Positions 9,399-13,432 of a stretch of DNA of 64,000 bases are shown here, one piece after another; position 1 is the stretch's first letter, and every line of letters starts with the position of its first letter. The stretch comes from Streptomyces abyssalis (GTDB lineage: Bacteria > Actinomycetota > Actinomycetes > Streptomycetales > Streptomycetaceae), in contig NZ_LJGT01000040.1 in assembly GCF_001751365.1 (NCBI RefSeq), forward strand, positions 1,221,696 to 1,285,695, given 5' to 3'. The position numbers were made by a program, and so were the translations under genes. Under the pieces are notes generated by a model. That model was not told the origin of the DNA. It saw nothing but the letters and a program-made list of their open reading frames with translations, and made no database searches.

Positions 9399-10004
9399 TC
9401 AGAACAGCGGCTCCGGAAGCAGCCCTTCAAGGGCGAGCAGCGTGCGTTTGGTCTCCAGCCCGCCGCCGAAACCGCCCAGGCCGCCGCCGCTCTCGACGAT
9501 CCGGTGACAGGGGACGAGGACTGGGAGCGGATTCGAGCCCATGGCCGTGCCGACGGCCCTGGCGGCTCCCGGTTCGCCCACGCGGTCGGCGAGATCCTGA
9601 TAGCCGGCAGTGGCTCCGTACGGCACTGATGCCAGCAGCTCGCGGAGCACTCTCTCGTTGAAGCCGCCCGAGAGCGACCAGTCGAGCGCCGCGGTGAACT
9701 CGCGGAGCTCACCGCGGAAATAGGAGTCGAGCTCCGCGGCGGCGCCCGCGAGGACGTGGCCCCCGGCGTGATCCGCGGCGCCTGCCACGGATCCCGGATC
9801 CGCGGGCCCGTCCACGCGGACCGGGGGCGAACCCAGCCGGCCGGTGATCCGGGCGAGGGCCCGGTCAGCCGTCGCCGGTCCGGCGTGGAAGACGACATTG
9901 ACCAGACCCTCGTCGGTCGCGGCGAGCAGCAGGGGGCCGACAGGGGTGTCCCGCACCGTCCAGCTGGAGGCGCGGGCTGCCGTACTCGCCGTTCTCTCAC
10001 TCAT
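9399..10004 (-). CDS. ogt: Methylated-DNA--[protein]-cysteine S-methyltransferase
   Basis: 201 residues. Suicide repair of O6-alkylguanine by transfer to an active cysteine. The active site PCHRI (Cys166) sits in the usual VLVPCHRIV context. The preceding helix-turn-helix-like segment (VPYGATAGYQDLADRVG) and the glycine-rich C-terminal GGLGGFGGGLETKRTLLALE are typical of Ogt. The ATG at 10004 is chosen over the one at 10058 because a TACGGT -10 box ends 6 nt before it, which makes the upstream ATG untranscribed. That promoter resembles the actinobacterial DNA-damage promoter. Confidence 0.92.
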   Translation of the reverse strand: MSERTASTAARASSWTVRDTPVGPLLLAATDEGLVNVVFHAGPATADRALARITGRLGSPPVRVDGPADPGSVAGAADHAGGHVLAGAAAELDSYFRGELREFTAALDWSLSGGFNERVLRELLASVPYGATAGYQDLADRVGEPGAARAVGTAMGSNPLPVLVPCHRIVESGGGLGGFGGGLETKRTLLALEGLLPEPLF

Positions 10005-10010
10005 GCGGCA

Positions 10011-10033
10011 ACCGTAGAGGGCTCCTCTGACAG
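10011..10033 (-). promoter_or_regulatory. Candidate DNA-damage (RecA-independent, PafBC-type) promoter of ogt
   Basis: Read on the minus strand: CTGTCAGAG, then exactly 8 nt, then TACGGT, then 6 nt to the ATG. The motif TTGTCRGTG-N8-TANNNT is matched at 7 of 9 upstream positions with correct spacing. Confidence 0.5.
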
Positions 10034-11143: not shown

Positions 11144-11272
11144 ACGGGGACTCCTCGCGTTCGTGCGAACACTGTCAGCTAAAGGCTTCCCGTTGTGCGA
11201 TACACGGAAGCAGAAGCGGAGTGTCGTGGGTGTGAACGTGGTGCGACTGTTCCGTCCCGCTGCGTGAGCCGG

Positions 11273-11295
11273 TTGTCAGTGCGGAGTCGTACGGT
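11273..11295 (+). promoter_or_regulatory. Perfect RecA-independent DNA-damage (RecA-NDp/PafBC-type) promoter of uvrB
   Basis: TTGTCAGTG (11273-11281), 8 nt, TACGGT (11290-11295), then 7 nt to the ATG at 11303. This matches the actinobacterial motif TTGTCRGTG-N8-TANNNT at every defined position. It also implies a leaderless uvrB message. Confidence 0.8.
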
Positions 11296-11302
11296 GGTCT
11301 GC

Positions 11303-13432
11303 ATGCGGCCGCAGACCCAGATCGAACGTACGGTGGCGCCTTTCGAGGTCGTCAGCCCCTACCAGCCGAGCGGTGACCAGCCCACCGCCATCAGTGAGCT
11401 GGCGCAGCGCGTCAGCGGGGGCGAGAAGGACGTCGTGCTGCTCGGCGCGACGGGCACCGGCAAGTCGGCCACGACGGCCTGGATGATCGAGAAGCTCCAG
11501 CGGCCGACGCTGGTCATGGCTCCGAACAAGACCCTGGCCGCCCAGTTGGCGAACGAGTTCCGCGAGCTCCTCCCGAACAACGCGGTGGAGTACTTCGTCT
11601 CGTACTACGACTACTACCAGCCGGAGGCGTACGTCCCGCAGACGGACACCTACATCGAGAAGGACTCCTCCATCAACGAGGAGGTCGAGCGCCTGCGGCA
11701 CAGTTCCACGAACTCGCTGCTGACGCGGCGCGACGTGGTCGTCGTAGCCTCCGTCTCCTGCATCTACGGTCTGGGCACCCCCCAGGAGTACGTCGACCGC
11801 ATGGTGCCGCTCAAGGTCGGCCAGGAAACGGACAGGGACGAACTGCTGCGCCGCTTCGTCGAGGTGCAGTACACGCGCAACGACATGTCCTTCACGCGCG
11901 GCACCTTCCGGGTCCGCGGCGACACCATCGAGATCTTCCCCGTCTACGAGGAACTGGCCGTCCGCATCGAGATGTTCGGCGACGAGATCGAGGCCCTCTC
12001 CACGCTCCACCCCCTCACCGGCGAGGTCATCTCGGACGACGAGCAGCTCTATGTCTTCCCCGCGTCGCACTACGTCGCCGGGCCCGAGCGCATGGAGCGT
12101 GCCGTGACGGGCATCGAGGCCGAGCTGGAGGAGCAGCTCGCGTCGCTGGAGAAGCAGGGGAAGCTGCTGGAGGCGCAGCGGCTGCGGATGCGTACCACCT
12201 ACGACATCGAGATGATGCGCCAGATCGGCACCTGCTCGGGCATCGAGAACTACTCCCGCCACATCGACGGCCGTGACCCTGGCACAGCGCCCCACACCCT
12301 GCTCGACTTCTTCCCCGACGACTTCCTTCTCGTCATCGACGAGTCGCACCAGACGGTTCCCCAGATCGGCGCGATGTACGAGGGCGACGCCGCCCGCAAG
12401 CGCACTCTGGTGGAGCACGGCTTCCGGCTGCCCTCAGCGATCGACAACAGGCCGCTGAAGTGGGAGGAGTTCCTGGAGCGCATCGGCCAGACGGTCTATC
12501 TCTCGGCGACACCCGGGCCGTACGAACTCTCGCGCGGCGACGGCTTCGTGGAGCAGGTGATCCGCCCGACCGGGCTCGTCGATCCGGAAGTCGTGGTCAA
12601 GTCCACCGAGGGCCAGATCGACGACCTCGTGCACGAGATCCGTACGCGTGCTGAGAAGGACGAGAGGGTGCTGGTCACCACCCTCACCAAGAAGATGGCG
12701 GAGGACCTGACCGAGTACTTCCTGGAGTTGGGGATCCAGGTCCGCTATCTCCACAGCGACGTCGACACGCTGCGCCGCATCGAGCTGCTGCGGGAGCTGC
12801 GCTCCGGCGAGTTCGACGTGCTGGTGGGCATCAACCTGCTGCGTGAGGGGCTCGACCTGCCGGAGGTCTCGCTGGTCGCGATCCTCGACGCCGACAAGGA
12901 GGGCTTCCTGCGCTCCGGCACTTCCCTGATCCAGACGATCGGCCGCGCCGCGCGCAACGTCTCCGGCCAGGTGCACATGTACGCGGACAAGGCGACGCCC
13001 GCGATGGAGAAGGCGATCGAGGAGACGAACCGCCGCCGCGACAAGCAGATCGCGTACAACAAGGAAAGGGGCATCGATCCCGAGCCGCTGCGCAAGAAGA
13101 TCGGTGACATCGTCGCGGACATCGCCCGCGAGGACATCGACACCGAGCAGCTGCTGGGCTCCGGGTACCGCCAGGAGAAGAAGGCCGGCGGCGACCGTAC
13201 GGGCAAGGGCAAGGCGCCCACTCCGGCGAAGTCGGCTGGCCGCAAGGAACGCGGTGCGGAGGTCCTCACGGACCGGCCCGCGAGTGAACTGGCCGAGACC
13301 ATCGAGCAGATGACCGAGCGGATGCGGGCCGCAGCGGCGGAGCTCCAGTTCGAGGTGGCGGCCCGGCTCCGCGACGAGGTGTCGGAACTGAAGAAGGAGC
13401 TGCGGCAGATGAGGGAGGCAGGGCTCAAGTAG
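11303..13432 (+). CDS. uvrB: Excinuclease ABC subunit UvrB
   Basis: 709 residues. Damage-verifying helicase-like subunit of nucleotide excision repair. Walker A GATGTGKS (Lys54), the beta-hairpin that inserts into DNA ([21 protein letters not shown], about 91-111), helicase motif II DESH, motif VI region TIGRAARN, and a C-terminal UVR domain ([24 protein letters not shown]) that binds UvrC. A charged Lys/Gly-rich linker precedes the UVR domain. The start at 11303 is fixed by the promoter, whose -10 ends 7 nt upstream. The longer in-frame ORF beginning at 11195 includes promoter DNA and is not used. Confidence 0.97.

Follow-up and report, generated by a model that had tools for sequence, protein, structure and literature searches.

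A predicted PafBC-type promoter placed directly before the uvrB start codon in Streptomyces abyssalis and its relatives

The window, the whole 64 kb stretch of S. abyssalis DNA analysed here, carries uvrB on the forward strand and, divergent from it on the reverse strand, a predicted leaderless ogt-type gene for an O6-methylguanine-DNA methyltransferase (9399–10004; PF01035, TIGR00589). The uvrB coding sequence, taken from its predicted leaderless ATG, spans 11303–13432 (709 aa plus stop) and was recognised by TIGR00631 (1061.5 bits) and by Pfam. Directly before it on the same strand lie a PafBC-type 9-mer, TTGTCAGTG (11273–11281), an 8-nt spacer, CGGAGTCG (11282–11289), a -10 element, TACGGT (11290–11295), and the 7-nt stretch GGTCTGC (11296–11302), which reaches the ATG and is too short for a leader or a Shine-Dalgarno (SD) sequence. 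The 9-mer and the spacer were read directly; the former is conserved in the genus and the 3' part of the latter (G.CG) is nearly invariant there.

The RecA-NDp/PafBC promoter class has the consensus TTGTCRGTG-N8-TANNNT. The first-pass annotation had claimed a perfect match to this class at 11273–11295 with an ATG at 11303, 7 nt past the -10 element, and direct reading confirmed both points. The match, TTGTCAGTG-N8-TACGGT, is the sole exact one in the 64 kb window, and the exact motif appeared in none of 100 dinucleotide-preserving shuffles of it. When up to two mismatches were allowed, the window held 2 matches against a shuffle mean of 1.37; a site must thus be exact to stand out by itself.

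The position of the uvrB start was checked by comparing upstream DNA from 50 genomes of the genus, our own included, and 80 from other genera of the class. The mechanically called ORF begins at a GTG at 11195, whilst the homologous start is the ATG at 11303, and an ATG occupies the equivalent position in all 50 genus genomes. Homology thereby backs the proposed move of the start, and uvrB is predicted to begin at 11303. A longer UvrB from the GTG at 11195 was considered and dropped, as the upstream DNA is not conserved: columns -79 to -24 averaged 0.43 bits in the genus, against 1.18–2.00 bits for the 9-mer and 1.32–2.00 for the -10 element. In every genus genome TANNNT ends 6 nt (20 genomes) or 7 nt (30 genomes) before the uvrB ATG, and at no other distance within 0–30 nt. 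The 9-mer with its N8 spacing had no mismatch in 40 of the 50, one in 8 and two in 1; the remaining genome has N7.

With the -10 element 7 nt from the ATG, the uvrB transcript would begin at or next to the start codon and the mRNA would be leaderless. In line with this layout, none of the 50 genus genomes had an SD-like sequence 4–13 nt before the uvrB ATG, nor did any of the 121 uvrB genes that show the promoter geometry, whilst such a sequence was present in 5 of the 9 uvrB genes that do not. Short -10 spacing and a missing SD together mark uvrB as a predicted leaderless gene. Transcription could instead begin further upstream, giving uvrB a leader and leaving the motif near the ATG as something other than the main promoter. 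The GGTG before the ATG could, by eye, pair weakly with the anti-SD, but the SD counts just given speak against such a start and we regard it as highly improbable. If transcription does begin at 11303, the 9-mer would span -30 to -22 with its centre at -26, which is where PafB holds its motif in the initiation complex of M. smegmatis, according to the accessible part of that report (PMC11804915). Among the papers covered, which included few subscription ones, none was found that links PafBC promoters to leaderless repair genes, and no literature match combined leaderless, Streptomyces and uvrB.

Scoring the motif over the whole genome, as had been proposed, gave 14 exact sites in S. abyssalis (6.6 Mb, 41 contigs) against 0 for the reversed pattern. 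In eight other single-contig genomes of the genus the exact motif occurred 173 times, with 9 to 35 sites per genome, whilst its reversed form occurred twice. We read the downstream genes of 104 of these 187 exact sites (the 173 and our own 14). Choosing the longest ORF was abandoned, wrong frames being common in GC-rich DNA; ORFs were chosen by codon-position GC score, which errs too, as at the TnpB-like locus described below. The downstream proteins formed 58 clusters, 29 of which hold a site with an in-frame start 4–9 nt past the -10 element. In a profile scan of 29 representatives from outside the window, 28 of them from exact sites, matches were found to UDG, UvrD helicase, RecD2, MgsA/RarA, DnaX, O6-methylguanine methyltransferase, RuvC and UvrA, and further to DNA polymerase III beta, a PD-(D/E)XK nuclease, PhoH, ribosomal protein S6 and a SigX5-type sigma factor; several of the 29 had no profile match. 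DinG, RadA and DnaE, also downstream of boxes, were named by eye on weaker domain matches. The uvrB promoter thus appears to be a member of a genome-wide set that lies before repair genes.

Start codons in this set cluster close to the promoter. In-frame ATG, GTG or TTG codons peaked at 7 nt past the -10 element (29 sites), with 8 sites at 6 nt and 7 at 9 nt, whilst each distance from 10 to 60 nt accounted for 0 to 9 sites. A start 4–9 nt past the -10 element was present at 52 of the 104 sites, which is an upper estimate because five recA sites have a homologous ATG 33–36 nt further on; leaving these out gives 47 of 99. At all five recA sites (L012, L192, L214, L222 and L238) an in-frame GTG lies 7 nt past the -10 element and 33–36 nt before the homologous ATG, with a similar short peptide, VKRS.., at each. 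A leaderless start that lengthens RecA is possible there.

Outside the genus, TANNNT stood 6–8 nt before the nearest uvrB start in 58 of 80 genomes, whilst the remaining distances within 0–30 nt totalled 4. If other in-frame start codons were admitted and the -10 element was permitted a single deviation, the geometry was found in 71 of the 80. The box itself is often CTGTCGG there, with a looser 3' end. At four loci (L070, L073, L077 and L079) the box is missing, yet TANNNT stands 6 nt before the start of uvrB, which indicates that a leaderless -10 element can outlive the box. It follows that the -10 alone can serve, as it would if the uvrB promoter were an ordinary constitutive leaderless one, read by the housekeeping sigma factor with little added by the 9-mer. 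Within the genus, however, the 9-mer and the -10 element are equally conserved, and copies of the 9-mer before further repair genes greatly outnumber the reversed-pattern control; we therefore consider constitutive expression very unlikely. It is somewhat more probable than an even bet that the PafBC-type regulon of Streptomyces is large, the nine genomes searched holding 9–35 exact sites apiece, and that nearly half of its genes are leaderless by fusion of promoter and start codon, with a -10 element that outlives the box at uvrB. If so, leaderless translation would belong inherently to the RecA-independent damage response. The fusion also offers a clean route to asking whether damage favours leaderless translation.

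PafB and PafC, the proteins that would read the box, are encoded in the genome. On contig C41, pafA is followed on the same strand by an FKBP-like gene, pafB, pafC and a tatC-like gene (locus L047), the FKBP-like and tatC-like neighbours being named by eye. The best PDB matches of the pafB and pafC products were the PafB and PafC chains of 7p5x and 9fnd, together with 6sj9. Across the 80 genomes of other genera, we scored the box core (TGTCRG in its set position, with one mismatch tolerated) against the strength of PafC, called strong where the best match was below 1e-40. Of the 57 genomes with strong PafC, 51 had the core, as did 6 of the 23 with weak or no PafC (Fisher 5.6e-8, for related genomes and with cut-offs set after seeing the data). 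Counting families rather than genomes weakened the association, to 20 of 23 versus 5 of 9 (p = 0.076). The leaderless -10 element was found in 53 of the 57 and 18 of the 23, respectively. The box was retained though no PafC was detected in G157 (78% complete), G176 (98%) and G324 (100%, 4 mismatches); G176 and G324 are among the six box-bearing exceptions of the weak or no PafC group. Weak matches may represent diverged PafC or different WYL proteins. In family f17, 3 of 5 genomes (L118, L120 and L126) have a strong PafC match, yet their uvrB lacks the leaderless geometry. We had considered PafC presence as proof of PafBC dependence and set this aside, as the family-level result is suggestive only. 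Short of proof, the co-occurrence of box and PafC supports PafBC as the reader of the box.

We also checked for LexA control. The first-pass annotation had noted no LexA box near uvrB, and this holds in the window: GAACNNNNGTTC was absent between 9413 and 13340 at 0 or 1 mismatch, and no palindrome of the GAACNNNNGTTC type lies near the promoter. Within 250 nt upstream of uvrB, the closest SOS-like 14-mer differed at 3 of 10 positions, compared with 1 for the recA control. LexA control of uvrB in the window was accordingly rejected for want of a near palindrome. Relatives qualify the picture. Of the 50 genus genomes, 17 carry a one-mismatch GAACN4GTTC-like site in the 250 nt before uvrB (Markov control approximately 6%), so that some members of the genus may have dual control; an exact GAACN4GTTC was not seen in that interval in any of the 50. 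In 12 of the 17 the palindrome, GAACC..TGRTC, sits 49–60 nt before the uvrB ATG (L018, L025, L030, L035, L036, L039, L043, L046, L139, L146, L019 and L021), and it is a possible degenerate LexA site. These 12 carriers speak in favour of LexA acting on uvrB from upstream of the PafBC box. Dual control also has a precedent in mycobacterial recA, as stated in the accessible part of PMC8223512, and our own recA locus carries both elements. The palindrome is however absent from the window, and the uvrB sites of relatives are one-mismatch ones throughout. We thus judge dual control of uvrB to be very unlikely.

Our preferred reading, to which we assign a probability of about 0.8, is that 11273–11295 is a PafBC-dependent (RecA-NDp) promoter of uvrB that gives rise to a leaderless mRNA. 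It rests on the exact motif and its excess across genomes, the promoter geometry, its conservation, the presence of pafB and pafC, the missing SD and the lack of a near LexA box in the window; from these we infer PafBC binding, induction by damage, RecA independence, the transcription start site and leaderless translation of uvrB. DNA damage would generate single-stranded DNA and activate a PafB-PafC heterodimer. PafB would read TTGTCAGTG at -26 whilst PafC would touch the housekeeping sigma factor at its domain 4; RNA polymerase would then initiate from TACGGT, at the ATG or immediately beside it. For this activation mechanism we rely on M. smegmatis, as set out in the accessible part of PMC11804915.

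The comparative evidence provides good support for a PafBC-type leaderless promoter at uvrB, as first proposed, and makes it a well-supported addition to a known promoter class. That class was reportedly described in mycobacteria by Gamulin in 2004 and by Mueller in 2018 and 2021, and the 2004 work may already list uvrB. The S. abyssalis site is like the mycobacterial ones in its consensus, in the presence of PafB and PafC and in having a repair gene downstream; it differs in genus and in the fusion of promoter to the uvrB start codon. The available portions of the mycobacterial papers place UvrABC within the M. smegmatis PafBC regulon (PMC8223512) and give a 37% fall in uvrB mRNA in a pafBC mutant (PMC5656591). 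RecA-NDp promoters have been described in Streptomyces at recA of S. rimosus and at SCO6735, the latter UV-inducible (PMC5087735). These share the motif and the genus with our site, but the accessible text of that report does not name uvrB and makes no leaderless claim. In Deinococcus, the IrrE/DdrO system likewise forms a non-SOS damage regulon with uvrA, uvrB and recA, but it acts through a repressor released at the RDRM motif and, as far as the available text of the source goes, involves no PafBC (PMC5552922).

A 2022 study of S. venezuelae recorded, in its accessible part, that PafBC homologues are present, that the M. smegmatis motif, by the study's own search, seemed not to be conserved and that a RecA/LexA-independent response in Streptomyces was still to be demonstrated (PMC9380542); the outcome of that motif search counts against our reading. 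The abundance of the motif in the genus and its strong conservation at uvrB bear on that question and make it testable. The uvrB promoter layout recurs in the sampled relatives, which also bears on it. Among the matches listed for the same uvrB promoter, 75 of 80 were Streptomyces and the rest Kitasatospora, Mobilicoccus and three-word MAG titles; S. venezuelae was not among these 80.

The first-pass annotation had further placed nucleotide excision repair as a whole under the RecA-independent branch. The evidence sustains this for uvrB but the claim is too wide for the pathway. An uvrA box occurs in two relatives (L181 and L200), with the start 43–44 nt downstream; in S. venezuelae, however, uvrA has a LexA ChIP peak, and the available part of that paper names uvrA, and not uvrB, as a LexA target (PMC9380542). 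uvrC did not turn up at any of the 104 exact sites read.

On the other side of the intergenic region, a degenerate box, CTGTCAGAG-N8-TACGGT (10011–10033, reverse strand), lies 6 nt before the ogt ATG at 10004; with 2 mismatches, this site is not significant alone. Exact boxes stand 6–7 nt before ogt in three relatives (L182, L201 and L231). An ogt-like gene was found upstream in 44 of 80 named loci, picked by their uvrB promoter, and was not found in 36. An exact box preceded a start codon in 30 of the 44 and a relaxed one in 11, whilst 3 had none.

Several other box-associated genes were recorded. Three families recur under the box without an obvious function; two of them (L166/L179/L218 and L157/L164/L195) had no Pfam match in their scanned representatives. 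At L002 (1501–1523; G000:C37:265225-265247) an exact box is followed by an ATG 7 nt past the -10 element and by a shortened TnpB-like ORF of 215 aa, named by eye; a damage-type promoter would here drive a gene of transposon type. Near a chromosome end, an exact box at L156 (G058:C1:8964-8986) lies upstream of a protein with a SMODS nucleotidyltransferase domain (PF18144, E 9.4e-10), possibly an anti-phage signalling gene tied to DNA damage. In the third recurrent family, of SWIM zinc-finger type (L009, L189, L210, L227 and L236), the ATG lies 7 nt past the -10 element in all five members.
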